NCBI GenBank assembly: GCA_002256345.1
Contig: NKIY01000001.1
Span: 62,001 to 126,000 of the forward strand
Source: Bradyrhizobiaceae bacterium PARB1
GTDB taxonomy: Bacteria; Pseudomonadota; Alphaproteobacteria; Rhizobiales; Xanthobacteraceae
Direction: 5' to 3'
Length of the DNA: 64,000 bases
Shown: piece by piece, positions 13,688-26,192 of the stretch
How positions within the stretch are numbered: the first letter of the stretch is position 1
How the letters are laid out: the number at the start of each line of letters is the position of its first letter
Notes under the pieces: generated by a model
Databases searched by the model: none
Seen by the model: the letters and a program-made list of their open reading frames with translations, nothing else
Told to the model about the DNA's origin: nothing
Made by a program: the position numbers and the translations under genes

Positions 13688-14572
13688 TCACTTTCCGAGA
13701 TAACGCAGCATGTCCGCGCGCAGGGTCTCGTTGAGGTCCGCGCGCTGCAGGCCATAGGCAATGTTTGCGCGCAGGAAGCCGGCCTTGGAGCCGCAATCGT
13801 GGCGCTCGCCTTCAAACTTCACACCGAAGAAGGGCTGGTTCTGGGCAAGGCCGATCATGGCGTCGGTGAGCTGGATCTCGCCGCCGGCGCCGCGCTCCTG
13901 GGTCTCCAGTATCTCGAAGATTTCCGGCTGCAGGATGTAGCGGCCGGTGATCGATAGGTTGGACGGCGCGGTGCCCTTCGGCGGCTTCTCCACCATCCCG
14001 TCGATGCTGTAGGCGTTGGCGTGGGACGGGTGACGTCCGCTGACGCTGCAGATGCCGTACTGATGCGTCATTTCCATCGGCACTTCCTCGACGGCGACGA
14101 GGTTCGAATTGGCGTCGAGACCGCTGGCGATATCGACCATCTGCTTCAGGGCGCCCGGCGAATTGAGCACCAGCTCATCCGGAAGCACCACAGCGAAGGG
14201 CTCGTTGCCGACGATGTGACGGGCGCACCAGACGGCATGGCCGAGGCCGAGCGGGGCCTGCTGACGGGTGAAGCTGGTCTCGCCGGCGCCGGGCTGGAAG
14301 CGCGCGAGCTGCTCCATTTCGGCGGTCTTGTTGCGGCCCTTCAGTGTTTCGTCGAGTTCGAACATCCGGTCGAAGTGGTCTTCGATGACGCCCTTGTTGC
14401 GGCCGGTGACGAAGATGAAATGCTCGATGCCGGCTTCGCGCGCCTCATCGACCACGTACTGAATCAGCGGTCGATCGACGATGGTCAGCATCTCCTTCGG
14501 CATCGCCTTGGTGGCGGGAAGAACACGGGTGCCAAGACCAGCGACGGGGAAGACGGCTTTGCGAATTTTCAT
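13688..14572 (-). CDS. galU: UTP--glucose-1-phosphate uridylyltransferase
   Basis: A 294-residue enzyme making UDP-glucose for lipopolysaccharide, exopolysaccharide and trehalose synthesis. The N-terminal nucleotide-binding stretch AVFPVAGLGTRVLPATKAMPKEML is clear, as are PLIQYVVDEA, LGLGHAVWCA and VEKPPKG. Length matches GalU (about 290-300). The ATG at 14572 gives the canonical MKIRKAVFP start. It ends against a repeat shared with the convergent diguanylate cyclase gene. Confidence 0.96.
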   Translation of the reverse strand: MKIRKAVFPVAGLGTRVLPATKAMPKEMLTIVDRPLIQYVVDEAREAGIEHFIFVTGRNKGVIEDHFDRMFELDETLKGRNKTAEMEQLARFQPGAGETSFTRQQAPLGLGHAVWCARHIVGNEPFAVVLPDELVLNSPGALKQMVDIASGLDANSNLVAVEEVPMEMTHQYGICSVSGRHPSHANAYSIDGMVEKPPKGTAPSNLSITGRYILQPEIFEILETQERGAGGEIQLTDAMIGLAQNQPFFGVKFEGERHDCGSKAGFLRANIAYGLQRADLNETLRADMLRYLGK

Positions 14573-14809
14573 CGGGAGCTTTGCAGTGAGCTGGAAGGGA
14601 AGGGCGTGCAGGCAACACAACGAGGATTGCGCGCCATGGTTCCCTTTGCAAGCGGTAACAAAGGCGGATGTATGTCGCGGGCACGGCGATTGTCGGTATT
14701 CCCGGCGATGGTGCGATCTGACTTTGCCACCGGAATCGGACTAATATTAAGCGGATCGAAAGCCTTCACCGGCCTTTTGTCATCACACCGTTACGATGGG
14801 AATTTCCGG

Positions 14810-16213
14810 ATGACGACTACACGGATGAGCCGACGCCAACAGATCGCCCGCCGCACGCGATTGGCCGCGATGATCGTCGGTACCGCGCTCGCCGTGTCAC
14901 CAGCTGCTGTGCAGGCCCAATCGGGTAATCCGCTTAATTTCCTCGACAACATCTTCAACAATTCGGGCCAGCGTCCGGCTCAGGCGCCGAGCGCGCCGAC
15001 GCCAGGCTCCAGCGCGCCGCAGCCATGGAGCGGTGAAGACGGCGCGTCCGGCCATCCGCTGATGACCGCAGCGGCGATCCGCGAAGCCGCGGCGAATTTC
15101 GACAACTGCATTGCCGGCCTGTGGCCCGATGCCGCACGGCGCGGTATCTCCGAACAGAACTATCGCGACATCACCGCCGGCCTGACGCCCGATCTGCGAT
15201 TGATGGACCTGATGGATTCGCAGCCGGAATTCACCAAGGCGATCTGGGACTATCTCGATATCCTCGTGAACGACAACCGCGCGGCCAAGGGCCGCGAGGT
15301 CCTGGCGCAGTACAAGACGATCTTCGATGCAGCCGAACGCGCCTATGGTGTCGATCGCTATATCGTCGCTTCCATCTGGGGCATCGAGTCCAACTACTCG
15401 ACCATGATCGGGGATCGCGACGTGGTGCGTTCCACGGCGACGCTTGCCTGCGTCGGCCGTCGTCAGGCCTATTTCAAGGACGAATTCCTCACCGCCGTCG
15501 AGATCCTGCACCGCGGCGATCTGCGCCGCGAGCAGCTCAAGGGCTCATGGGCTGGCGCGTTCGGGCCGACGCAGTTCATGCCGACGGCGTTCAAGCGCTT
15601 CGCTGTCGATGGCGACGGCGATGGGCGCCGCGACGTGGTCGATAACCCGACCGATCTGATTTTCTCGACGGCCAACAACCTGAAGAAGGATGGTTGGCAG
15701 AGCGGACAACCTTGGGGCTACGAAGTCGTCGTCCCGCAAGGCTTCAACTACATGCAGGCCGATCGCGCCAAGATGCTCACGCTGGCGCAGTGGGAGCAAA
15801 TGGGCCTCAAGCGTGCCAACGGTCAGCCGTTTCCGCGCGGCAGCGAGAAGGCCTATCTACTCGCGCCCGCTGGCGCGCAGGGGCCGGGTTTCCTGATGAT
15901 GCAGAATTTCCGCGTGATCATGAAATACAATCCGGCCGAAGCCTATGCGCTCGCGATCGGCCATTTTGCCGACCGGCTGCGCGGCGGCCCGCCTTTCGTT
16001 CAGCCCTGGCCGCGCCAGGAGCGCGTGCTGTCGCGTGCCGAACGGCTTGAACTGCAGCAATTGCTGGTTCAGCGCGGCCTCTACAAAGGCACACCGGACG
16101 GCCAGTTCGGCAGCATGACGCGGGAGGCATTGCGCAACTTCCAGGCATCTATCGGCGCACCGGCTGACGGCTTTGCAACCTCGGAAGTGCTGGATCGCTT
16201 ACGCGGCAGATAA
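14810..16213 (+). CDS. Lytic murein transglycosylase (MltB-type) with peptidoglycan-binding domain
   Basis: 467 residues with a signal peptide (basic stretch, then MIVGTALAVSPAAVQAQ). The SLT_2 catalytic domain spans roughly residues 85-390, with the catalytic Glu193 in WGIESNYS, then AGAFGPTQFMPTAF. A C-terminal peptidoglycan-binding domain runs about 400-465 (LQQLLVQRGLYKGTPDGQFGSMTREALRNFQ). It cleaves glycan strands in the periplasm with formation of 1,6-anhydro ends. ATG 14810 was taken; ATG 14825 is five codons downstream. Confidence 0.93.
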   Translation: MTTTRMSRRQQIARRTRLAAMIVGTALAVSPAAVQAQSGNPLNFLDNIFNNSGQRPAQAPSAPTPGSSAPQPWSGEDGASGHPLMTAAAIREAAANFDNCIAGLWPDAARRGISEQNYRDITAGLTPDLRLMDLMDSQPEFTKAIWDYLDILVNDNRAAKGREVLAQYKTIFDAAERAYGVDRYIVASIWGIESNYSTMIGDRDVVRSTATLACVGRRQAYFKDEFLTAVEILHRGDLRREQLKGSWAGAFGPTQFMPTAFKRFAVDGDGDGRRDVVDNPTDLIFSTANNLKKDGWQSGQPWGYEVVVPQGFNYMQADRAKMLTLAQWEQMGLKRANGQPFPRGSEKAYLLAPAGAQGPGFLMMQNFRVIMKYNPAEAYALAIGHFADRLRGGPPFVQPWPRQERVLSRAERLELQQLLVQRGLYKGTPDGQFGSMTREALRNFQASIGAPADGFATSEVLDRLRGR

Positions 16214-16258
16214 GCGAGGCGCAGGTGCAACAGCCTCTGCAGATTTGTGCGATCTTGT

Positions 16259-16600
16259 CTAAAGGATCGCAACCTTCAGCGACGTGTTGATGGCTCCCTT
16301 GACGATGTTCAGAACCGAGTCGATGAATTTCTGAACCTGCACCAGCATGATCTGGGCGGTGTTCGCAATGCCTTGAACGAGGAGCAGGCGAGCATTCAGC
16401 AGATACAGCTTTGCGTCAGCCTTCGTGATCTCGTTGGCCAGGACCCCTGCGGCGATGTCGAGAAGGTTTTGCGAGAAGCCGCGAATATAGAGCGGAGCAG
16501 ATTTCTGGATCTTGCTCCAGGTCTCGCCACCGATTGTTGTCGCTTGCGCGATGATCTGATTGGCGATCGAAGCTAGGTCCGCCGTGATGTCCGTGGGCAC
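16259..16600 (-). CDS. Small helical protein, function unknown
   Basis: 113 residues, almost entirely predicted alpha-helical and rich in Ala, Ile and Leu, with no Cys, no signal peptide and no known motif. It follows the lipoprotein gene by 18 bp on the same strand, so the two are very probably one transcript. Repeated amphipathic runs (LLDIAAGVLANEITKADAKLYLLNARLLLVQGI) suggest that it associates with a membrane or with its partner. I do not recognise the family. Confidence 0.6.
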   Translation of the reverse strand: MPTDITADLASIANQIIAQATTIGGETWSKIQKSAPLYIRGFSQNLLDIAAGVLANEITKADAKLYLLNARLLLVQGIANTAQIMLVQVQKFIDSVLNIVKGAINTSLKVAIL

Positions 16601-16618
16601 GATGAGCGCTCCAGTGGT

Positions 16619-17155
16619 TTAGGTCGCGGGTTTGTTCGCGATGAAGGTTTGGATGCTGCCGAGGATCGAGGTCTGCAAAATCCCGCCGGCCGCCTTCGCT
16701 TCCGAGCGGTTGAGGACGCCGTCGTTCTTGTGTGCATATTCGAGCTGGGCGACGTAAATGCGGACCGCGGCCAGCTGATACTCCCGGCAATCGAATTTCA
16801 GATATTCGTCCGGCAGATTCACCTTGATGGGGCCGGTTTCGCTGAAGTCTTTCAGCGTGGCATTCGTCGGGCAGGCGACCAGCCCGCGACTGAGGCGTGC
16901 GCGCTCGCTGAGGCGATCGAGCAGATTATAGGCCGATGCATAATAGGTGACCGCCTCCTTGGACGCATAGCTGCGTTCGCTGGATCCTGCCGATGCAGCC
17001 GCGACGAACTTTGCCGTGTCTTCGGAGAATTTGTTCAGCGACTGATCGAAGGTCGCGTCGTAGATCGATACGAGCGATCCGCAGCCCGTCAGCAAGAGGG
17101 ACGCGCACAACAACGCGCCCGTGAAAACACGCGACAGCACAAACATCTTACTCAT
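16619..17155 (-). CDS. Lipoprotein of unknown function
   Basis: 178 residues with a lipoprotein signal peptide ending in the lipobox LLTGC (Cys25). The rest is mostly helical, with two further Cys residues (VACPTN and FDCREY) that could form a disulphide in the periplasm. The family is not recognised. It is the first gene of a two-gene unit with the small helical protein downstream (18-bp gap). Upstream is an A/T-rich segment (about 17160-17210) that probably holds the promoter. Confidence 0.7.
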   Translation of the reverse strand: MSKMFVLSRVFTGALLCASLLLTGCGSLVSIYDATFDQSLNKFSEDTAKFVAAASAGSSERSYASKEAVTYYASAYNLLDRLSERARLSRGLVACPTNATLKDFSETGPIKVNLPDEYLKFDCREYQLAAVRIYVAQLEYAHKNDGVLNRSEAKAAGGILQTSILGSIQTFIANKPAT

Positions 17156-17263
17156 CCCCAGCCCGAGCTAAGCTAAGCAAAACGCCCTTTGATTGTAAAC
17201 ATGTTTTGCACTCGCTGAGTGTGCGCGGCGGCCGGCGACGCTCCTTTTACCGGCCGCATCGCC

Positions 17264-18049
17264 TCACGCATTGCGTGCCATCAGCCCGCCATCGACGGGA
17301 ATGACCGCGCCCGTGATGTAGGACGCAGCGGGCAGACACAGGCTCACGGTCATATGCGCGACCTCTTCGGGATCGCCGTAGCGGCGCAGTGCCGTGCGGC
17401 GCTTGGCGAAGATGACCTTGTGCTCGTCGCTGATGCGCGCGGTGATGCCGGTTGTGATCGGACCGGGACAGATGCAGTTCACGGTGATGCCTTCGCGGCC
17501 GAGCTCGACGGCGAGCGAGCGTGTCAGACCTGTGACGCCAGCCTTCGCCGCGGAATAGGGGCTGTGGAGCGCCGTTGCGCCGAGCGCTTCGGTGGAGGCG
17601 ATATTGACGATGCGCGGGCATGGCGACTTGCGCAGATAAGGCAGTGCGGCGCGGATGATGCGCTGATGCGAAGTCAGCATGACCGCGATGGCGCGATCCC
17701 ACGTGGCGTCGTAGCCGTCCTTGTCGATCTCGGTGGAAGCCGACATGCCGGCATTGTTGACGATGATGTCGAGTCCGCCGAAATGCGCCGCGGCTTCATT
17801 CACCACTGTTTTGATCCGTTCGGGATCGGCGACATCGAGCGTCCAGGCGCGTGCGCTGCCGCCATGTGCGGTGATGGCGTCCGCGACAGCGGCTGTCCCG
17901 TCTGCCGAAATATCGGTGACGGCGACATGGGCGCCTTCCTCGCCGAACACGCGCGCCGTCGCGCGGCCCATGCCGCTAGCGGCGCCAGTGACGAGAACGG
18001 TGAGGCCGCGCACCGAGCGGCTGAGTGGCTTGTAGTCGGACACGCGCAT
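17264..18049 (-). CDS. SDR-family oxidoreductase
   Basis: A 261-residue classical SDR with the cofactor motif TGAASGMGRA near residue 21, IIVNNAGMS, catalytic Ser in NIASTEA and Tyr-x3-Lys in YSAAK. The C-terminus ITGAVIPVDGGLMA is typical. Asp in VTDIS after the second strand favours NAD(H). The substrate is unknown. It is divergent from a second SDR at 18152, so the pair may share control or act in one catabolic route. Confidence 0.9.
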   Translation of the reverse strand: MRVSDYKPLSRSVRGLTVLVTGAASGMGRATARVFGEEGAHVAVTDISADGTAAVADAITAHGGSARAWTLDVADPERIKTVVNEAAAHFGGLDIIVNNAGMSASTEIDKDGYDATWDRAIAVMLTSHQRIIRAALPYLRKSPCPRIVNIASTEALGATALHSPYSAAKAGVTGLTRSLAVELGREGITVNCICPGPITTGITARISDEHKVIFAKRRTALRRYGDPEEVAHMTVSLCLPAASYITGAVIPVDGGLMARNA

Positions 18050-18151
18050 TCTCCCGTGGCTGCGCCTTCATGATGAGGCTTGCGCGAAGGCTTGCATCGA
18101 TTGCCGGCGCGGTCAAACATGCGCGAGCAAAAAATCAAGAAGGATACAGGG

Positions 18152-18886
18152 ATGAACGAACTCGATTTCTCAGGGCAGCAAGTGCTGATCGTCGGCGGCT
18201 CGAGTGGCATCGGCAACGGCATGGCGCAGGCGTTTCGCAAGCGCGGCGCCAGGGTCGATGTCTGCGGCACGCGCGCGAAGGCGGGCGATTATTCCATTGA
18301 GGACGGTTCGAATCTCGAGGGGCTCACCTATCATCAGCTCGACGTCAGTAGTGCATCGGCCATCGAGGCGTTCGATCCGAAGCTTGATCGGCTCGATGTG
18401 CTGATCCTCGCTCAGGGTGCGGTGATCTATCGGCGCGGCGAGTTCGAGATGGATGGCTTTCGCAAGGTGATGGAGGTCAATCTCATGAGCCTGATGGGCT
18501 GCGCGTCGAAATTCCATGCGCAACTGAAAGCGAGCAAGGGACGTCTGATCATCGTCAGCTCCACGGCTGCCTATCATGCGACCAAGGGTAATCCGTCCTA
18601 CAACGCATCGAAGACTGGTGCAGTCGGCCTCACGCGTACGCTTGCGCAAGCCTGGTCCGAAGACGGCATTCGCGTCAACGGGATCGCGCCCGGACTCGTC
18701 GATACCAAGATGACGAAAGTGACAACCGGCAATCCGCAGCGGCTCGAAGGCGCGCTGTCGCGGATTCCGTTGCAGCGTCTCGGCACGCCTGACGATATGG
18801 CCGGCGCAGCGCTGTTCCTGGCATCGCCGCTGTCGTCCTATGTGTGCGGTCACACGCTTGTCGTCGATGGCGGACTGATCCTTTAA
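18152..18886 (+). CDS. SDR-family oxidoreductase
   Basis: A 244-residue classical SDR with the cofactor motif VGGSSGIGNG, catalytic Ser in VSSTAAY, Tyr-x3-Lys in YNASK and the end VCGHTLVVDGGLIL. The middle of the nucleotide-binding domain is shorter than in its divergent neighbour. The ATG at 18152 has AAGGA at proper spacing; an upstream ATG at 18119 in the same frame lacks one. The substrate is unknown. Confidence 0.9.
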   Translation: MNELDFSGQQVLIVGGSSGIGNGMAQAFRKRGARVDVCGTRAKAGDYSIEDGSNLEGLTYHQLDVSSASAIEAFDPKLDRLDVLILAQGAVIYRRGEFEMDGFRKVMEVNLMSLMGCASKFHAQLKASKGRLIIVSSTAAYHATKGNPSYNASKTGAVGLTRTLAQAWSEDGIRVNGIAPGLVDTKMTKVTTGNPQRLEGALSRIPLQRLGTPDDMAGAALFLASPLSSYVCGHTLVVDGGLIL

Positions 18887-18968
18887 TACGCGGCGGCGGC
18901 ATTCGCGCGGAACCTGCAAGCCGCTCACGCATTACACCGGCGAGAGTTTCCCTCACGGAGTGATCGAT

Positions 18969-19331
18969 ATGGATAAGGACCGCATTGCAGGTGCCGCAAA
19001 GGATGCCGCCGGCAAGGTTGAGAGCGTTGTCGGCAAAGTCACCGGCGACGAGCGCACCGAAATGTCCGGCCGCACGCGCGAAGCGGAAGGCACCATGCAG
19101 AATCTTTATGGTCAGGTAAAAGACGGTGTGCGCGATGCGTCGGATAAAGCTGCCAGCTACGCCAAGGACGCGCTCGACAGCGACGTCTATCGCGATGGCA
19201 CGCAGGCGCTGACCGACAAGGTGCGCGACAATCCGCTTGGCTCACTGCTGATCGCAGGCGGCATCGGCTTTGCGCTGGCCATGCTGATGACGCGTCCGCC
19301 GCGTCGGCGCCCCAACCGCTTTGGCTACTAA
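18969..19331 (+). CDS. CsbD-like stress protein with C-terminal membrane helix
   Basis: 120 residues. The first 60 form a CsbD-type domain (MDKDRIAGAAKDAAGKVESV, then KVTGD). A helical linker follows, then one glycine-rich hydrophobic span (LGSLLIAGGIGFALAMLM) and a basic tail (PPRRRPNRFGY). CsbD proteins are abundant general-stress proteins of unknown mechanism. ATG 18969 was chosen for the GGAG eight bases upstream; a GTG at 18960 is in frame. A strong terminator follows. Confidence 0.85.
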   Translation: MDKDRIAGAAKDAAGKVESVVGKVTGDERTEMSGRTREAEGTMQNLYGQVKDGVRDASDKAASYAKDALDSDVYRDGTQALTDKVRDNPLGSLLIAGGIGFALAMLMTRPPRRRPNRFGY

Positions 19332-19357
19332 GAGATTGATCTAGCTAAGTAAAAGAC

Positions 19358-19390
19358 GCCTCGCCAGCGAAAGCCGGCGAGGTATTTTTA
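19358..19390 (+). terminator. Rho-independent terminator after the CsbD-like gene
   Basis: CCTCGCC (19359-19365) pairs with GGCGAGG (19376-19382) and is followed by TATTTTTAT. It lies 27 bp past the stop codon at 19331. Confidence 0.8.
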
Positions 19391-19407
19391 TGCATGAAAA
19401 TTTGCGA

Positions 19408-21102
19408 TCAGCGGAAGAAGAAGCCGGAGGGGGCGGAGGCGGCGGGGCCGACATTGGCCGGCGGGCGCGGGGCGCCCTGCTGCTGACGGGGCCGCTGGGG
19501 GGCCTGCTGCTGCGCCGGACGGCGCGGCTCGTCATTGCCGAAAAAATTGCCGAAGAAGGACGGCGTTTCCGTGACGACCGGTGTCTTTTTCTTCGCCTGC
19601 TGCTTTGGCGGAGCCGACGGTGCCATCACAGGCACGATGCCATCGGGCGAGGCCACGGCCGTCGCATTGCCTGAGGCGGAAGACGACGGCGTCACTGCTG
19701 CCATCGGCACGTCGCTCTTCGGCGGTTCTTTGGCCGGTTCGCGGCCGATCTCGCGGCGCGGCCAGGCGAAATCGTCGGCACGGCCGGGCGGCGCACTCAG
19801 CGGCTCGCCCTTTGCCAGCGTCTTCGCGACCAGCGGATCGACATTCAGCGTCTTGGCGCCGGGGCCGCCGAGCAGCGTGTCGCCGCCGATGGAGGCGGCA
19901 ACCAGTGGTACGATCGGACCTGCCAGCGGACGCGGCGGCGGCGCGCCGGGCACGACATTGACGTCGGGCTGTGCCGGTTCGGTCGGCAGCGCCACGGGCG
20001 CGGCGCGGCCGGAGAGCAGGCGCGTGATCTCGCGCTCCACATAATGCGCCATCTTGCGGGCGCCGGCCTTGGTGAAATAGACGCCGTCCGGTGTGCGCAG
20101 CCGGCGGATCTGGCCTTCGAAATCCGGGCCCTGCTGCAGGAAGCGGCCGGATTCATCGACAAAGCCGTCCCAGATATCGACATAGGTGATGCCGGCTTTG
20201 CCGGCGGCATCGCGATAGAGATTGTTGAGATAGACCATGTCGGCCATCGCCTTCGGCCCGCGCACGGCGGGCAGGCCGACCCAGAGCACGGGCACGCCAC
20301 GGCTCTTGGCGATGTTGATCATCTCCTCGATCTTCTTCTCGTAGAGTTCGCCCCAGCGATCGTCGCGGAATTCCACCATGCCGCCGCCGCTGCGCGCGCC
20401 GCGCTCGTTCACGATGGAGCCGGGATCGTTGACATCCGCATCGTCGGCGTCGGCATTGTCGGCCGGCTTGTCGCCGGGCTTCACATCGGCGGCGCCGTCC
20501 TTCTTGTCGTCTTTCCTGGCGGCCTTCTTGTCGGGCTCGCGAAGCGGGATGCGGTCATTGAGGCCGAGCATGATGACAATGGCATCGGCCTTCTCATTGG
20601 CGAGAATGCCTTTGGCGGCCGCCGCCCAGTCGGATGGTTCGCCCTTCGGCTGATAGCGCAGCAGGCCGGAGACGGTCTTGTGCTTGCGGATCACGCCCAT
20701 GTCGGGCTGTTCGGAATAGGCGTCTTCGAGGCCATAGCCGAGCCAGTCGGCCATGCTGTCGCCGAGCACCAGCACATTGCGTTCGGCCTGGCTGTCGCGC
20801 TTGTCGGACTGCGGGGCGCGGGAATAATCCTCGCGGCGGCGCGGCGCCTGCTGTTGCGGCGCCTGTTGCTGGAACGGCTGGAAGAAATCGCCGCCGAACC
20901 AGCCGCCGCCGAAACCGCCGCGTTGCTGCTGCGGACGTTGCTGCGGCGGCGGGCCGCCGAAGCCGAAGAACTGCGCCGAAGCCGTGCCGGCGATGCCGAC
21001 CAGCAGCGCCAGCGCGGTGATACCGATAGCCAGCACCAGCCGTTCGCGGCGCCACAGATCGGGCCGCCATCGGGCTTTCGGTGCTTTCGGCTTGTCGGAC
21101 AT
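19408..21102 (-). CDS. DUF459 SGNH-hydrolase-fold protein
   Basis: 564 residues. A single hydrophobic span near residues 22-43 anchors or exports it. A Gln/Gly/Phe-rich low-complexity stretch (about 44-85) precedes an SGNH/GDSL domain with Ser116 in LVLGDSMADW and GLND at 180-183. The expected D-x-x-H end reads DGVY (339-342), so the catalytic His may be Tyr or lie elsewhere. An acidic and Lys-rich insert (about 190-230) and a Pro/Ala-rich tail follow. ATG 21102 gives MSDKPKAPKARW. The role is likely in the envelope, perhaps glycan deacylation; this is not certain. Confidence 0.8.
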   Translation of the reverse strand: MSDKPKAPKARWRPDLWRRERLVLAIGITALALLVGIAGTASAQFFGFGGPPPQQRPQQQRGGFGGGWFGGDFFQPFQQQAPQQQAPRRREDYSRAPQSDKRDSQAERNVLVLGDSMADWLGYGLEDAYSEQPDMGVIRKHKTVSGLLRYQPKGEPSDWAAAAKGILANEKADAIVIMLGLNDRIPLREPDKKAARKDDKKDGAADVKPGDKPADNADADDADVNDPGSIVNERGARSGGGMVEFRDDRWGELYEKKIEEMINIAKSRGVPVLWVGLPAVRGPKAMADMVYLNNLYRDAAGKAGITYVDIWDGFVDESGRFLQQGPDFEGQIRRLRTPDGVYFTKAGARKMAHYVEREITRLLSGRAAPVALPTEPAQPDVNVVPGAPPPRPLAGPIVPLVAASIGGDTLLGGPGAKTLNVDPLVAKTLAKGEPLSAPPGRADDFAWPRREIGREPAKEPPKSDVPMAAVTPSSSASGNATAVASPDGIVPVMAPSAPPKQQAKKKTPVVTETPSFFGNFFGNDEPRRPAQQQAPQRPRQQQGAPRPPANVGPAASAPSGFFFR

Positions 21103-21272
21103 TCGGACTGATGGCCTCGACCGCTGGACGGGCGCAAAGGCCCAGGTTCCATCCAGATTATACCCGGATTCGGGCTGCAAGCGGGCAGCCTCGTTGCCCG
21201 CCATCAAGCCTTGCGGGCCGCGAAGGTCAAGCTGTCCCGCGATCTTTTCGGAAAAGGGTTAGCGCGTATCCG

Positions 21273-21395
21273 TGTCCCGGGCGCAATGCGGTGCGAAGTG
21301 CCGCTCTGCAGAACCGGGACCGCCCGAAAGTTCCGAGATCGATACGGTCCCGGCTCTGCGAAGCAGCACTCCGTGCTGCGTCGCGTCCGGGACAA
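21273..21395. repeat. Long imperfect palindrome (about 120 bp)
   Basis: TGTCCCGGGCGCAATGCGG at the left end mirrors GCTGCGTCGCGTCCGGGACA at the right. The inner arms GCAGAACCGGGACCG and CGGTCCCGGCTCTGC also pair, so the whole can fold as one long hairpin. This is a dispersed-element form common in Bradyrhizobium. It lies between the DUF459 and DUF930 genes. Confidence 0.75.
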
Positions 21396-21400
21396 GGTGG

Positions 21401-21808
21401 CTACTTCCAGAGCCCGTAGGATGCCCATTTTGCGGGCGGAATCGCCGCGCCGGTCTTGTAGCTGAAATCCAGCACGGTCTTGTGGTCCGGCGTCGCCTTG
21501 CAGGTGAAGGACATCTGGTACCATTTGCCGCCGGCCCGGAACGCGCCGCCCTTGGCCACCAGCATATTGCCGAGATGCTGCGGCGGCATGATCACGTCCG
21601 ACTTGGCGCGATCGACCCGCGCGCCGGCCGATTTGCTCTGGCTCATTCGCCGCATCGCCTCGAGATCGCAGATCTGTTCCAGCCGGGTTTTCGGATCGAG
21701 CTTGTCGAGCGCGCGGAGGAAGCGTGCATCGGGCCCGGCCGAGACAGGCGCCGAGATGACAGGCACGGCGATCGCGGCGAGCGCCAGCGTGAGAGCAGGT
21801 GACTTCAT
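21401..21808 (-). CDS. DUF930-family exported protein
   Basis: 135 residues with a signal peptide (MKSPALTLALAAIAVPVISAPVSA). The DUF930 core follows: FLRALDKLDPKTRLEQICDLEAMRRM, then a second Cys in SFTCKATPDHKTVLDF. Two conserved Cys may form a disulphide. It is periplasmic with unknown function. The ATG at 21808 starts the signal peptide; the frame stays open upstream into repeat DNA. Confidence 0.8.
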   Translation of the reverse strand: MKSPALTLALAAIAVPVISAPVSAGPDARFLRALDKLDPKTRLEQICDLEAMRRMSQSKSAGARVDRAKSDVIMPPQHLGNMLVAKGGAFRAGGKWYQMSFTCKATPDHKTVLDFSYKTGAAIPPAKWASYGLWK

Positions 21809-22130
21809 GAGGCGATAAAGCAGGTCGGAGAAATGAAGGTGAGAGGTGTCCGTTAGCGCAGCCGCGCCATGCGCGCCAGCGACTGAGGGTTTCAGGGCGG
21901 TGCAACGTCGCGCGAGGCGAGTCGCGGCCTCTGCTATTGCCACGCACTCACTGTCATCACCGGGCCTGACCCGATGATCCATCGTGAACCCGGAGCGCGC
22001 GGCCAGGGATGGATACGCGGGCCTTCGCCGCGCCGAAACGGCTTCGGCCGCGCAGGCGGGTCAAGCCGCGTACGATGTGCAGAGCATGGTGCCAATTCGG
22101 GTGTATCATTTCATCCGCCCACGCGCCGTC
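21809..22130. other. Non-coding stretch with repeat fragments
   Basis: No gene is supported here. It contains pieces of dispersed repeats such as CCGGGCCTGACCCGATGATCC near 21960 and the GC-rich, partly self-complementary stretch CGCGCCGAAACGGCTTCGG near 22028. It leads into the larger element at 22130. Confidence 0.6.
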
Positions 22131-22565
22131 CTTGTCGCGTTCGCAGCGCGAAGTGGACTTCCCTGTGTTCCCCTTCAGGATGAGGGGGATGACGCGCCAA
22201 GAAGCGCATAGTCGGGTAGTCCTCGCGATGGGAGCCGGCTGAAACGTCAGCCTTCCCCGCCGCGCAACGCCTCTCGGCGCGCCATCACGGCGATTTTGGG
22301 CTGGAGGACCGCTCTGTCGCACACCGGCACGTCCCGTACTCCTCCGATTCACGGAGTTTCGGTTTCGCTGATCCCGACGGTTTTCCCGCCGTTCGCCTGC
22401 GCCGTCGCAGCCGACCTATCGGCTCCCCCTCGTAATGGGGAGGGACGGTGGCCCCCAGCCTCCCGAGTCCTGCTTGCGAGGCAAGCCGCGGGCGCCGTCG
22501 TCCTCCTCCACCCTCAAGACGCCCTCGAGAAGCGCCCCTCGTGAGAAGGATGGAAAGGAATATAA
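22130..22565. repeat. Large dispersed repeat abutting the tcmP/DUF5131 insert
   Basis: About 430 bp without a credible gene. It has a recognisable order of short motifs: CCCCTTCAGGATGAGGGGG, ACGGCGATTTTGGGCTGGAGG, GATCCCGACGGTTTTCCCGCC, GCCGACCTATCGGCTCCCCC and a GTGAGAAGGATGG end. From memory this motif order recurs many times in Bradyrhizobium genomes. A sharp change to A/T-rich DNA follows at about 22560. Confidence 0.55.
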
Positions 22566-22675
22566 GCCGAAATGTGTATTTGTCAATGGAAACGCCCTTA
22601 AGTAGAAATTGCGACCGGTTGCCGCTAGTCTTCCAACGGGGGAGCGTGAGTGTGTCGTCACGTTGGGGAGTTTAG

Positions 22676-23572
22676 ATGGTCGATCATGAGTTTGGCGGAC
22701 AGCATACCGAACTCAAGCTGTCTATCGTCGAAGGATACTTACAAGCCTTTACAACTGCATTACGGCCGCACTTCAAGCATCTCTGGTACATAGATGCATT
22801 TGCTGGAACTGGCAGCCGCACGGTGCGAACGGAAAGTAAGGGAGCTACATTAGTCGAAGCTCCAGCGGCTGAGATTGTTGAGCATCGTCGTGGTTCGGCG
22901 CGAATCGCAATTGATGTTCGTCCCCGATTTGATTTCCTCGTATTTATCGAAAAGAACGCAAATTACATCGCGGCTTTGAATGATCTGGCAGCGCACAACT
23001 TGCAACGTTCTATTGTCGTCGCGAAGGAAGATGCGAATACGGCATTGCAGCGGTTGGTTGGGACCAATCGTTGGGACGATAAGCGAGCGGTCGTATTTCT
23101 CGATCCGTACGGAATGGAGGTCGAATGGGCTACATTGGAGGCGCTTGCGTCGACCGAGGCAATTGATGTCTGGTTTCTATTCCCGTTGGCGGGATTGTTT
23201 AGGCAGGCCACACGTCGTCTAACAGATATCGATGAGTCCAAACGTGCCGCGCTCACACGCATGTTCGGCTCATCGGCATGGGAAGAAGAGCTGTATCCGG
23301 TCGAAGATGCGGACTTGTTGGGGGCTATACCTGAACGACGCAGGGATTTGGACCCTCGAGGTTTGGAGGCCTATGTTCAAAAACGGCTGAGCACCATATT
23401 CGGAAAAGTACTTAAGCCGCTTGCACTGCCCGTTCATAGAGGCCCGCAGATGTTCTCCCTATTCCTCTGCATCTCGAACAAGACGCCTAAAGCAACGGCG
23501 TTGGCGATGAGGATCGGGAATCACCTCTTAGACCCGAAGCGGCATCTCATCAAAAGTTCTGCCACGAAGTAG
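22676..23572 (+). CDS. tcmP: Three-Cys-motif partner protein TcmP
   Basis: 298 residues of the TcmP family (tcm_partner), which accompanies DUF5131 proteins on mobile segments. The hallmark GGQHTELKLSIVEGYL is at residues 7-22. DAFAGTG (40-46) resembles motif I of class I methyltransferases and FLDPYG (141-146) resembles the catalytic motif IV, so a SAM-dependent modification role is plausible but unproven. ATG 22676 has GGGGAG upstream. GC is clearly low for this genome (48% in 22681-22740 by hand count). Its last 45 bp overlap the convergent DUF5131 gene. Confidence 0.88.
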   Translation: MVDHEFGGQHTELKLSIVEGYLQAFTTALRPHFKHLWYIDAFAGTGSRTVRTESKGATLVEAPAAEIVEHRRGSARIAIDVRPRFDFLVFIEKNANYIAALNDLAAHNLQRSIVVAKEDANTALQRLVGTNRWDDKRAVVFLDPYGMEVEWATLEALASTEAIDVWFLFPLAGLFRQATRRLTDIDESKRAALTRMFGSSAWEEELYPVEDADLLGAIPERRRDLDPRGLEAYVQKRLSTIFGKVLKPLALPVHRGPQMFSLFLCISNKTPKATALAMRIGNHLLDPKRHLIKSSATK

Positions 23573-24277
23573 GCGGCCAGCTCTCTTTTTATTCTTCCCG
23601 CCCCATTGTTTGAAGAAGAATGCAGCGCCCGATTTGCGGCACATGAATTCGATTTCATCGACCCACTCTGGCTTCATCTCGCGCGCACGCGGGCCGCTTT
23701 CGCCACCCACAATGACCCAGTGAATATCGCGCAGGTCACCGCCAGCAACGGATCCGATAAGTGGCTCCATCGAAACGAAACGGACTGCAGCCGGAACAGC
23801 TCTGATTGCGTCGAGCCGGTTAAGAACTCTGCTGTCCTCTATACTTGTTCCAAGCCATACATTTGGAAGTACGGGAAAGCGAGCACCGCTCAGGACTGCA
23901 GCCATGCGTTCAGGGCGTTTAGACAGAATTTGGTAAGTGTGATGCGGCGTTTCTCGCATTACAGCCCAAACCCGATAGATAAAATCGACTGGGACATCCT
24001 CGTGGAAAAGGTCCGACATTGAGTTGACGAAGACCTTGCGAGGTTTTGCCCAGGAACGCGGGGTATCGAGTGAAGATTCGTCTATTCGAATTTCCCCAGT
24101 CCAGACCGTTCGACCGCCACTCTTGCGGGTAAGTCCTTGGTACTTCTCAAGACCCATGGCATCGAGCCGGGCTGCCATCCGCATCGCATAACAATTCGTG
24201 CATCCAGCAGTCAGCACAGTGCATCCAGCAACTGGATTCCAAGTCGCGTCGGTCCACTCGATCGATGTGTCAGCCAT
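23528..24277 (-). CDS. DUF5131 (phage Gp37/Gp68-type) three-Cys-motif protein
   Basis: 249 residues of the DUF5131 family. It opens with MADTSIEWTDATWNPVAGC and carries Cys19, Cys26 and Cys29 (C-x6-C-x2-C), the three-Cys motif for which TcmP is named and a likely Fe-S site. Further family blocks are VFVNSMSDLFHEDVP, ILSKRPERM, NVWLGTSIE, VSMEPLIG, VIVGGESGPRAR and FFKQWGG. A radical-SAM-like activity has been suspected for this family. ATG 24277 has GAGG just upstream. It faces tcmP, and the two coding ends overlap by 45 bp. Confidence 0.9.
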   Translation of the reverse strand: MADTSIEWTDATWNPVAGCTVLTAGCTNCYAMRMAARLDAMGLEKYQGLTRKSGGRTVWTGEIRIDESSLDTPRSWAKPRKVFVNSMSDLFHEDVPVDFIYRVWAVMRETPHHTYQILSKRPERMAAVLSGARFPVLPNVWLGTSIEDSRVLNRLDAIRAVPAAVRFVSMEPLIGSVAGGDLRDIHWVIVGGESGPRAREMKPEWVDEIEFMCRKSGAAFFFKQWGGKNKKRAGRLLRGRTFDEMPLRV

Positions 24278-24481
24278 AGGAGCCTCGTAAGTTCCTATAG
24301 AATCTCAAGAAAGAGGTTAAATTTAGTTACTTGATCTTTTGTTTCAACTGACGGTGATTGCTACCTTTTCAAGGATGCACATCATCGCCGCATTCTCCTC
24401 ACCTCACCGCCCCATCGCCTCCAGACCTTCCGCACACTTCCGGGTTACCGCTGGTCGTCCAATCAATGGAAAGGACAGACC
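24278..24481. other. A/T-rich gap at the right end of the tcmP/DUF5131 insert
   Basis: About 200 bp between the DUF5131 start and the small exported protein gene. The first 80 bp are A/T-rich (AGGTTAAATTTAGTTACTTG) and likely hold the minus-strand promoter of DUF5131. GC rises again after about 24370, marking the probable right edge of the insert. No repeat or attachment site is visible. Confidence 0.5.
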
Positions 24482-24832
24482 ATGCGCACCATGACAGCTC
24501 TCGCTCTCGCCGCCACGCTTTCCCTCGGCACGCCCGCGCTCGTGATGGCGCAAGGGACAGGCGCCGCCAAGGACACCAGCGCGCCGAAATCCACCGTGCA
24601 GATCAACAAGATCCAGGTGATCGACGTCAAAACGCTGCCCGATGCCGTGAAGACGCAGGTCGATGAGGTCGTGTCGAAGACCAGCGAGGAGGACATGAAG
24701 GGCCTGCGCGCCTCCATCGATGCCTCGCCGGCCGCCGCCAATGCGCTGAAGGAAAAGGGCGTGACATCGGCGCATGTGGTCGCGGTGAATATCGCGGACG
24801 GCGTGCTGACAATGTTCACGAAGGCGGCGTGA
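24482..24832 (+). CDS. Small exported protein of unknown function
   Basis: 116 residues with a signal peptide (MRTMTALALAATLSLGTPALVMAQ) and a helical mature part (VKTLPDAVKTQVDEVVSKT, then LRASIDASPAAANALKEKGV). No cofactor motif and no Cys. It is probably periplasmic. It is a single gene just to the right of the tcmP/DUF5131 insert, with normal GC, so it belongs to the host backbone. Confidence 0.7.
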   Translation: MRTMTALALAATLSLGTPALVMAQGTGAAKDTSAPKSTVQINKIQVIDVKTLPDAVKTQVDEVVSKTSEEDMKGLRASIDASPAAANALKEKGVTSAHVVAVNIADGVLTMFTKAA

Positions 24833-24968: not shown

Positions 24969-26192
24969 TTAACCCGCCGAATCATCCTCGATGATCGGGC
25001 CGAACAGCTCCCAGCGCTCGCCGTTGAACTTCTGCATCTGCAATTGCTTGTTGACGCGGTAGTCGGTGGGCGAGGTGGTGAGCTTCATGCCGGGCAGGTG
25101 CAGGTCGGTCTCCAGACCGGACAGGCTGGTGGCCTGCTTCATCACATTGGCGCGGGTGAGATCGTCGCCGCAGCGCTTCAGGACTTCCACCATCACCTGG
25201 GCATTGCCATAGCCATAGGTGTTGAAGTTCGAGTTCTTGTCGCCGTCCGGATAGTATTTTTCCATGAAGGCGAGATAGCGCTTCATGCCGGCATCGTCCT
25301 TCCACTGCGGATCGAGCGGGTCCTTGCCGTAATTGGTCGAGATGAGACCCTTGCTGTTGTCGAGACCCGCCGGCACCAGCACCGCGCCCACCGAGGTGGC
25401 GTTGATGTCGACGATGTGGACCGGCTTCCAGCCGAGATCGGCGACCTTCTTGATCGCCTGCGCGGCGAATTTCGGCGTCGAGGCGTTGAACAGCAGATCG
25501 GCGCCGGAGGACTTCAGCTTGACGATCTGCGAGTCGATGGTGGGGTCGGCGAGTTCGTAGCTCGCGTCCGAGACGATCATCGACGCGGCCTTGTCGCCGA
25601 GGCCGGCCTTCATGCCGTTGAGATAGTCGCGGCCGAGGTCGTCGTTCTGCCAGAGGATGGCGATCTTGGCGTTCGGGTGATTCTTGAGAATGTACTTGGC
25701 GTAGATCCGGCCTTCGGTGTGGTAGTTGGGATTGTAGCCCATGGTCCACGGAAAATTCTTCGGATCGGAGAAGCGCGTGGCGCCGGTGGCGGCGAACAGC
25801 TGCGGCACCTGCTTGGTGTTGAGATATTTCTGCACGGCGGCGTTGGACGGGGTGCCGACGAGCTGGAAGGTGAAGAGGACCTCGTCCGACTCCACCAGCT
25901 TGCGCACCTGCTCCACGGCCTTGGGCGGCGAATAGGCGTCGTCATACTGGATCAGGTTGATCTTGCGGCCGTTGATGCCGCCCTGATCGTTGATCATCTT
26001 GAAATAGGCCGCCTGGGTCTTGGCGATGGAGGAATAGGCCGAGGCGGGGCCGCTGAACGGGGCGGTCTGGCCGATCTTGATTTCGGTGTCGGTGGCGCCC
26101 GGATCGTATTTCTTCTGCGCATGGGCCGCAGTGGCCGATAGCGCGGTCGCCAGCACGGATGTGGCGATCCAATGAACGAGCTTCACTCTCAT
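24969..26192 (-). CDS. Branched-chain amino-acid-type ABC transporter substrate-binding protein
   Basis: 407 residues of the LivJ-type periplasmic binding protein family. It has a signal peptide (IATSVLATALSATAAHAQ), then IKIGQTAPFSGPASAYS, INDQGGINGRKINLIQYDD and the hinge region WQNDDLGRDY. In this family ligands range from amino acids to aromatic acids and amides, so the substrate is open. No permease or ATPase gene is adjacent, so it must work with components coded elsewhere. ATG 26192 has GGGAG upstream. Confidence 0.92.
   Translation of the reverse strand: MRVKLVHWIATSVLATALSATAAHAQKKYDPGATDTEIKIGQTAPFSGPASAYSSIAKTQAAYFKMINDQGGINGRKINLIQYDDAYSPPKAVEQVRKLVESDEVLFTFQLVGTPSNAAVQKYLNTKQVPQLFAATGATRFSDPKNFPWTMGYNPNYHTEGRIYAKYILKNHPNAKIAILWQNDDLGRDYLNGMKAGLGDKAASMIVSDASYELADPTIDSQIVKLKSSGADLLFNASTPKFAAQAIKKVADLGWKPVHIVDINATSVGAVLVPAGLDNSKGLISTNYGKDPLDPQWKDDAGMKRYLAFMEKYYPDGDKNSNFNTYGYGNAQVMVEVLKRCGDDLTRANVMKQATSLSGLETDLHLPGMKLTTSPTDYRVNKQLQMQKFNGERWELFGPIIEDDSAG

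Follow-up and report, generated by a model that had tools for sequence, protein, structure and literature searches.

Adjacent genes for a TcmP protein and a DUF5131 protein are already named as a defence candidate in PADLOC-DB (PDC-M41A/B), and the pairing itself is contained in the NCBIfam name of TcmP. PDC-M41 and PDC-M30 are PADLOC models that come without mechanism or activity, and searching the literature by the names DUF5131, PDC-M41 and 'Gp37 Gp68 family protein' returned no paper on a tcmP/DUF5131 pair. Here we analyze such a pair in a stretch of 64,000 nucleotides from Bradyrhizobiaceae bacterium PARB1 (contig NKIY01000001.1, positions 62,001 to 126,000; hereafter the window, whose numbering is used except where another locus is named), and add to the PADLOC models a chromosomal hotspot, a structured-RNA border and predicted folds. 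A preliminary description of the window had proposed an uncharacterised defence module; its standing as a defence candidate holds, but given the entries in PADLOC-DB and NCBIfam neither the defence idea nor the pairing is new.

The described enzyme nearest to TcmP is RlmJ, which, according to the available part of its description, adds a single methyl group at N6 of A2030 in 23S rRNA and becomes inactive when K18 or D164 is replaced by alanine (PMC3814359); nearest to the DUF5131 protein by predicted fold is spore photoproduct lyase, a radical S-adenosylmethionine (SAM) enzyme. As for genomic setting, the accessible portion of the work on cDHS1 and cDHS2 of Pseudomonas aeruginosa describes conserved flanks enclosing exchangeable defence cargo, often without a mobility gene, next to a noncoding RNA gene, there a tRNA or tmRNA gene, with medians of 26 and 6 kb (PMC10250203). 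The site studied here is alike in flanks, cargo and border RNA, and differs in that its low-GC cassettes are of ~1.5-3 kb and its border RNA candidate belongs to an unlisted multicopy family present at two or more sites. In Sinorhizobium meliloti, the tcmP gene SMa2243 is listed beside the phage-defence gene hna (SMa2245) in the part of the report on Hna that was available (PMC12445080), and a link of TcmP with Hna defence is possible. A stretch of S. meliloti 1021 pSymA (L258, 5322-11142) holds two tcmP genes, with DUF5131 beginning 1.3 kb past the first; one tcmP there lies beside an 852-aa open reading frame (ORF) that may be hna, the other beside DUF5131.

We consider it probable that the insert in the window was acquired horizontally and is a candidate anti-phage cassette of two enzymes, of the PDC-M41 type, lodged in a chromosomal defence hotspot. 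As a candidate the pair was known before; what is newer is the hotspot and the RNA candidate at its border.

A cassette of two overlapping genes

The preliminary description had pointed to a 1.8-kb low-GC block holding only tcmP and a DUF5131 gene, and both coordinates and content were borne out by the ORFs and the base composition. By GC profile and comparison with relatives the cassette spans 22566..24378; GC content is 0.51-0.55 over 22500-24249 (~0.52), against 0.60-0.70 in the 3 kb on each side. The plus-strand gene tcmP (22676..23572) encodes 298 aa and the minus-strand DUF5131 gene (23528..24277) 249 aa. The genes converge and overlap at their 3' ends by 45 bp (23528..23572), as they likewise do in G016 (L038), one of the 18 genomes of the genus compared; this overlap, the hotspot and the bordering structured RNA candidate are features beyond the preliminary description. 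The two genes fill the cassette, the other listed ORFs overlapping them, and neither an integrase nor a transposase was found in the block.

The family assignments proposed earlier are secure. TcmP scores 181.3 bits against TIGR04474 (curated cut-off 53), its three-Cys partner DUF5131 being adjacent, and the DUF5131 protein matches PF07505 with E=1.3e-94. Among PADLOC models, TcmP matches PDC-M41A (E=2.6e-80) and PDC-M30A only weakly, and the DUF5131 protein matches both PDC-M41B (E=7.5e-104) and PDC-M30B (E=6.7e-96); with A and B proteins matched and their genes adjacent, the pair belongs to PDC-M41. The motifs singled out in the preliminary description are likewise all present: DAFAGTG (motif I; aa 40-46, codons 22793-22813) and FLDPYG (aa 141-146, with DPYG of motif IV at 23102-23113) in TcmP, and C19-x6-C26-x2-C29 in the DUF5131 protein (24191-24223, minus strand). 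Of 189 DUF5131 proteins with 200 aa or more, 188 retain the cysteine motif, and K14 (codon 22715-22717) and D143 of TcmP are kept in 53/53 aligned sequences (P144 in 48/53), a degree of conservation that argues against chance.

A defence hotspot across the genus

The site was resolved in 15 of the 18 genus genomes (not in G005, G010 and G011), and 12 of the 15 carry a low-GC cassette there; in G002, G008 and G009, where it is absent, the GC content of the interval is 0.60, 0.62 and 0.57. The tcmP/DUF5131 pair occupies the site in two genomes, that of the window (G000) and G016. Five of the ten other cassettes match defence models strongly: DRT2 in G014 (E=2e-118), a KAP/PifA-like gene in G017 (E=1.1e-99), an AIPR/AbiU-like gene in G001 (E=1.2e-35), PDC-S14 in G015 (E=2.1e-77), and a CBASS cyclase with a 2TM effector in G013 (E=2.6e-104 and 3.7e-68). 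G012 holds a TIR piece (Pfam 3.7e-13, PADLOC only 4e-5). The same flanks thus enclose different cargo (DRT2, KAP/PifA-like, AbiU-like, PDC-S14, CBASS, PDC-M41), as defines a core defence hotspot. A position conserved in all relatives at normal GC, which the preliminary description had named as an argument against a mobile module, was not what we found, and its suggestion of a defence context agrees with this cargo and with the PADLOC matches that a tabulation of neighbours gave beside pairs elsewhere.

The cassette directly abuts a multicopy element of ~450 bp on the left and ends on the right at a sharp junction, 24378/24379, where homology with seven relatives begins: G014, G001, G015, G004 and G007, which hold other cassettes, and the cassette-free G002 and G009. 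In G017 and G003 the alignment at the right end begins 7 and 44 bases further in. Entry of a cassette may involve exchange either between the flanks, which are conserved, or beside the RNA gene. With just these two genes seen in the block, homologous recombination between the flanks is the probable route by which cargo would be exchanged at the 5' side of the resident structured-RNA gene. A tRNA-associated island was ruled out, as the window contains no tRNA.

Two predicted enzymes

The AlphaFold2 model of TcmP, made from 53 sequences, has a predicted local distance difference test score (pLDDT) of 93.3. Its top 13 matches in the PDB are all RlmJ or its DUF519 relative (E 3.5e-7 to 1.1e-5, template modeling (TM) scores 0.45-0.55), and a sequence profile, matching over positions 36-141 of its 352, leads to the same group (E=6.2e-5 to 3.2e-3), with nothing outside RlmJ/DUF519 below E=0.3. 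The best fold match is RlmJ itself (PDB 7p9o, 4blv), whose catalytic Lys and Asp have invariant equivalents in K14 and D143; D143 lies in the profile-aligned DP, and K14 is equated with the RlmJ lysine by position only. RlmJ differs in being a housekeeping enzyme, TcmP being accessory, and in sharing 13-16% identity with it. We therefore predict an RlmJ-like class I SAM methyltransferase of the N6-adenine type, in line with the methyltransferase-like character first read from its motifs; we call it RlmJ-like and not RlmJ because its motif IV reads DPYG where RlmJ has DPPY and because a Pfam scan at E<=1 found no RlmJ family. Membership of RsmD was ruled out, the score against RsmD/Cons_hypoth95 (PF03602) being 18.2 bits with a gathering cut-off of 24.

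For the DUF5131 protein (model from 78 sequences, pLDDT 94.5), the top 12 PDB matches are all radical-SAM enzymes (E 4.4e-4 to 1.1e-2), headed by spore photoproduct lyase (4fhc, E=4.4e-4) and followed by LipA, MiaB, viperin and DesII; from rank 13 down they are largely other TIM barrels. A sequence profile against PDB chains gave no match at E<=10. The protein shares with spore photoproduct lyase and other radical-SAM enzymes three clustered cysteines and a predicted partial TIM barrel, and differs from the lyase in its smaller size, its CX6CX2C spacing and its methyltransferase partner. The usual radical-SAM cysteine motif is CX3CX2C. On the modeled fold, the protein is best read as a small radical-SAM enzyme with spore photoproduct lyase as its closest counterpart, a reading that fits the radical-SAM-like nature suggested earlier. 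The protein does not belong to radical SAM mobile pair protein A (TIGR04471), against which it scores 61.8 bits with a curated cut-off of 355.

Taken together, TcmP and the DUF5131 protein may act sequentially or as a complex on one nucleic acid: the radical-SAM enzyme would attack an unreactive C-H or base, the methyltransferase would finish or license the product, and the mark would either spoil phage nucleic acid or shield host RNA from a phage enzyme. RNA seems a somewhat more likely substrate than DNA, since RlmJ acts on an rRNA hairpin; points in favor of DNA are the likeness to spore photoproduct lyase and the DNA methylases that flank some DUF5131 genes lacking TcmP (see below). The presence of viperin among the fold matches (5vsm, E=4.9e-3) raises a different prospect, namely that the pair makes a viperin-style modified nucleotide that stops phage polymerases, with TcmP as an accessory methylating step. 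We hold this to be very improbable, because spore photoproduct lyase, LipA and MiaB outrank viperin and an RlmJ-like partner points to a polymer rather than a free nucleotide. For the pair as a defence cassette, the predictions turn two unexplained genes, an RlmJ-like methyltransferase and its radical-SAM partner, into a testable hypothesis with named residues.

Pairing and selection

The accessory, mobile distribution expected from the preliminary description is seen within the genus, where tcmP occurs in 3 of 18 genomes and some form of DUF5131 in five, two of them incomplete. The incomplete genes, a partial one at G014:C90:110621-110971 and one with internal stops at G006:C1:2850501-2850611, point to gain and loss. 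In the class, TcmP exceeds the TIGR04474 cut-off in 29 of 385 genomes, and 27 of the 28 loci fetched from among these have DUF5131 within the 1.5 kb flanking TcmP; the one locus without it is at the start of a contig. Loci were also counted from the DUF5131 side, over the best 80 of at least 582 confirmed in genome records and the best 80 of at least 597 viral ones. A TcmP match lies within 300 bp in 72 of the 80 genome loci (TcmP upstream on the same strand in 41, downstream on the same strand in 18, convergent in 13) and in 33 of the 80 viral loci; when the match is required to be at least 200 aa long, 66 and 31 loci are paired. Over the 93 of 105 pairs whose lengths could be used, the distance matrices of TcmP and DUF5131 correlate (Mantel r 0.34, reached in 0/999 permutations), a correlation of which part could come from shared phylogeny alone.

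Each of the two proteins is ~85% identical to its counterpart in G016, with a ratio of nonsynonymous to synonymous differences (pN/pS) of 0.11 each, the last 16 codons of each gene being excluded owing to the overlap. Both cassette genes are thus under purifying selection. Their pS values, 0.86 and 0.74 (saturated), far exceed the 0.32 (dS 0.41) of the flanking core gene, which makes vertical inheritance at the site unlikely; the simplest account is that related cassettes entered this one site independently in the genome of the window and in G016. A decayed prophage or plasmid stretch in which the two genes ride along without a selected function would accord with the incomplete DUF5131 genes of G006 and G014; with ORFs intact, pN/pS low in both genes and active-site residues invariant, we give this explanation hardly any credence.

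Evidence against a defence role and alternative explanations

Several observations weigh against the defence cassette that we favor. Absence from 15 of the 18 genus genomes makes tcmP dispensable. At the hotspot, four of the ten other cassettes are without a strong PADLOC match (G003, G007 and G004, together with G006, which the scan did not cover), and PDC-S14 is itself merely a candidate defence system. The TcmP fold matches have TM-scores of only 0.45-0.55, to which its deviant motif IV and the empty Pfam result for RlmJ are to be added; for the DUF5131 protein the query TM-scores are 0.38-0.50, the best E value is 4.4e-4 and the cysteine spacing is unusual. The TcmP profile was iterated on the very loci in which pairing was then counted, and the synonymous rates of cassette and core gene may differ through composition. 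In the literature covered, no phage assay of the pair was found.

The neighbors of pairs elsewhere also call for caution. Around the 72 genome pairs, 125 proteins match 221 PADLOC models at E<=1e-8, compared with 23 models for 97 proteins more than 6 kb from pairs, a rough contrast that counts models, not proteins, so that one protein may match many. Mads, Septu, PsyrT, Hachiman, AbiE, restriction-modification and dCTPase models are found beside pairs among the matches listed. Such neighbors, Hachiman, Septu, AbiE, restriction-modification and Mads in particular, speak against another reading, in which the pair is accessory, modifies RNA so as to adjust translation or stress tolerance and, unconnected with phages, only shares a recombination hotspot. 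So do carriage by phages and the patchy presence in the genus and the class. This alternative has in its favor that RlmJ, in the available part of its description, modifies rRNA in the course of ribosome biogenesis (PMC3814359) and that some cargo of the site, such as an HWE kinase, is not known defence; on balance we regard it as quite unlikely.

Phage genomes bring a further set of points against defence. DUF5131 occurs in 159 of 50,697 phage records and a close TcmP in 2, a count affected by the faster divergence of TcmP, of which a single query misses distant members; similarly, 47 of the 80 viral DUF5131 loci have no detected TcmP. A DUF5131 gene without TcmP in phages also fits a phage-serving role, in which the pair modifies phage or prophage nucleic acid against host restriction or other defences and the chromosomal copy is a leftover. 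In the flanks of TcmP-less DUF5131 genes (102 proteins, mostly of phages), DNA methylases are indeed seen, four of the C5 type, one N6/N4 and one D12 among the best 25 of 40 families. Complete pairs do occur in phages as well. Gordonia phage Fairfaxidum has a convergent DUF5131/TcmP pair between integrase and immunity repressor (gp43, TcmP profile E=1.8e-47), a setting that counts in favor of defence, and in Synechococcus phage Ssp-JY39 the two genes are convergent and overlapping. Against service to mobile elements stand the completeness of the pair in 72 of the 80 genome loci, the purifying selection in the chromosome, the lack of any other gene of note in the block and the known defence systems that the hotspot holds, and we think it unlikely.

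A structured RNA candidate at the border

The element that adjoins the cassette on the left (22115..22565, minus strand) is a candidate structured RNA of ~450 nt, which would be read leftward away from the cassette. Its sigma70-type promoter, TTGACA-16-TATATT (22559..22586, minus strand), agrees with the consensus at 11 of 12 positions. A DNA search with the element gave 14 full or partial matches in its own genome, and the minus strands of 22 copies could be aligned, their promoter being conserved at the cassette side. RNAalifold predicts 89 pairs from this alignment; 97.5% of cells pair, and both sides have changed in 23 pairs and 97 cells, values reached in 0/500 shuffles and compared with at most 15 pairs and 30 cells in slid versions. 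The structure was predicted from the alignment on which it was tested, which favors it, and the copies are related to one another. Even so, helices 2, 6, 8 and 9 show strong compensatory changes, as of a covarying structured RNA candidate. A known RNA family was ruled out, Rfam 15 giving no match at E<=1 in window positions 21900-24700 and none at the gathering score in five loci. The element is likewise not a plasmid or phage repeat: a plasmid search found no match, viral contigs contained no exact match of its 22-base core, and its profile found none in 173 other loci, the 80 genome DUF5131 loci included.

At the hotspot the element is present in 12/12 genomes with a cassette and absent from 3/3 without one, save for a remnant in G009, where 45 nt of the element's 3' end (L037:13007-13051, E=1.1e-5) remain at the left edge of the cassette-free site. 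Because of this remnant, element and cassette were probably lost together in G009, and the notion that cassette-free sites never had the element is contradicted. GC content beside the element was determined for 59 copies. In the promoter-side kilobase it is below 0.56 for 28 of 46 copies with an intact 5' end and for 0/12 without it, and in the kilobase on the other side for 0/47 and 0/12; as copies were partly chosen as hotspots and the threshold of 0.56 was set after the data were seen, the asymmetry between sides is the sound part of this comparison. Not every copy with a promoter end carries a cassette, since 18 of the 46 lack a low-GC side, ten short copies (L088-L097) among them, and at a third site (L078, L080) the element stands without low-GC cargo and can therefore stand alone.

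Going further, resident copies of the RNA at several chromosomal sites could form a new kind of landing platform, each collecting an anti-phage module of 1.5-3 kb on the promoter side, without a recombinase of its own and across genera of one bacterial family, with tcmP/DUF5131 as one cargo that writes a new two-step mark by radical-SAM chemistry and N6-adenine-type methylation; we put this forward as a speculative extension with a low chance of being right. In practice, the RNA candidate can serve as a signpost to small defence cassettes beside it.

A second hotspot, other genera and other cargo

At a second site, the element stands with a low-GC block in ten genomes (G000, G001, G003, G004, G006, G007, G008, G012, G015 and G017), and G005 has it at a contig end. 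Neither is present in G002, G011, G013 and G016, where the profile also finds no element; the GC content of G014 (0.56) is borderline, G009 carries the element on a rearranged contig but no low-GC block, and G010 could not be resolved. Five of ten genomes whose cargo was scanned have a defence match at E<=2e-30 (G001, G006, G017, G007 and G008), to PD-Lambda-5, PDC-S15, an OLD-like protein, a reverse transcriptase (for which a generic model is best) and a methyl-directed restriction enzyme. The cargo of G000, G003, G004, G005 and G012 has no PADLOC match at this threshold, G014 and G015 lying outside the scan. In the window's own genome, this cargo is a low-GC PIN-domain gene of 338 aa beside the element copy (L079:5023-6549; G000:C1 ~351-352.5 kb), for which no PADLOC model matches at E<=0.001.

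A search of DNA at the level of the family found the element in 36 of 119 genomes (5 of its own genus) and 19 of 47 genera, and 20 stretches were fetched from other genera. A tcmP/DUF5131 cassette adjoins the element in G425, a gene beside it in G449 matches the dCTPase model (E=6.9e-161), and G439 holds a ParA-like three-gene cassette that resembles that of G003, with protein identities of 74, 37 and 66%. The cassettes of G003 and G439 (L035:9641-11775 and L338:2858-4889) both lie beside the element, without a strong PADLOC match, and the three genes are a candidate for a new defence system.

Of the remaining cargo at the first site, G003 has the ParA-like gene with its two companions, G007 an HWE histidine kinase (L032:10423-11958) and G004 an 8xMP (Pfam) membrane gene (L036:9569-11171), each without a strong PADLOC match; the last two have no explanation as defence. 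G006 carries a chemoreceptor-like gene and a transposase, labeled by eye. The ParA-like cassette, the HWE kinase, the 8xMP-like gene and the PIN gene make up a short list of new defence candidates.

Flanking genes

To the right of the cassette lie a plus-strand gene of 116 aa (24482..24832) and a minus-strand core gene of 407 aa (24969..26192), which from its sequence we labeled as an ABC-transporter substrate-binding type. The 116-aa gene was not found by blastn at the site in G016, G012, G006, G013 and G008, so that the right edge differs among genomes; in these five, shared sequence resumes with the core gene. On the left, window positions ~14000-21925, up to the RNA element, are shared by blastn with G014 and G009 only among the loci fetched, and in most other loci a penicillin-binding-protein-like gene region, judged by eye, takes their place; as the left flank differs in most loci, a rearrangement breakpoint near the hotspot is indicated. 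Near the right end of the site, four genomes have a small endonuclease-like gene (L034:10816-11322, L036:11246-11767, L037 and L030), presumably DUF559, which occurs there also without a low-GC cassette.

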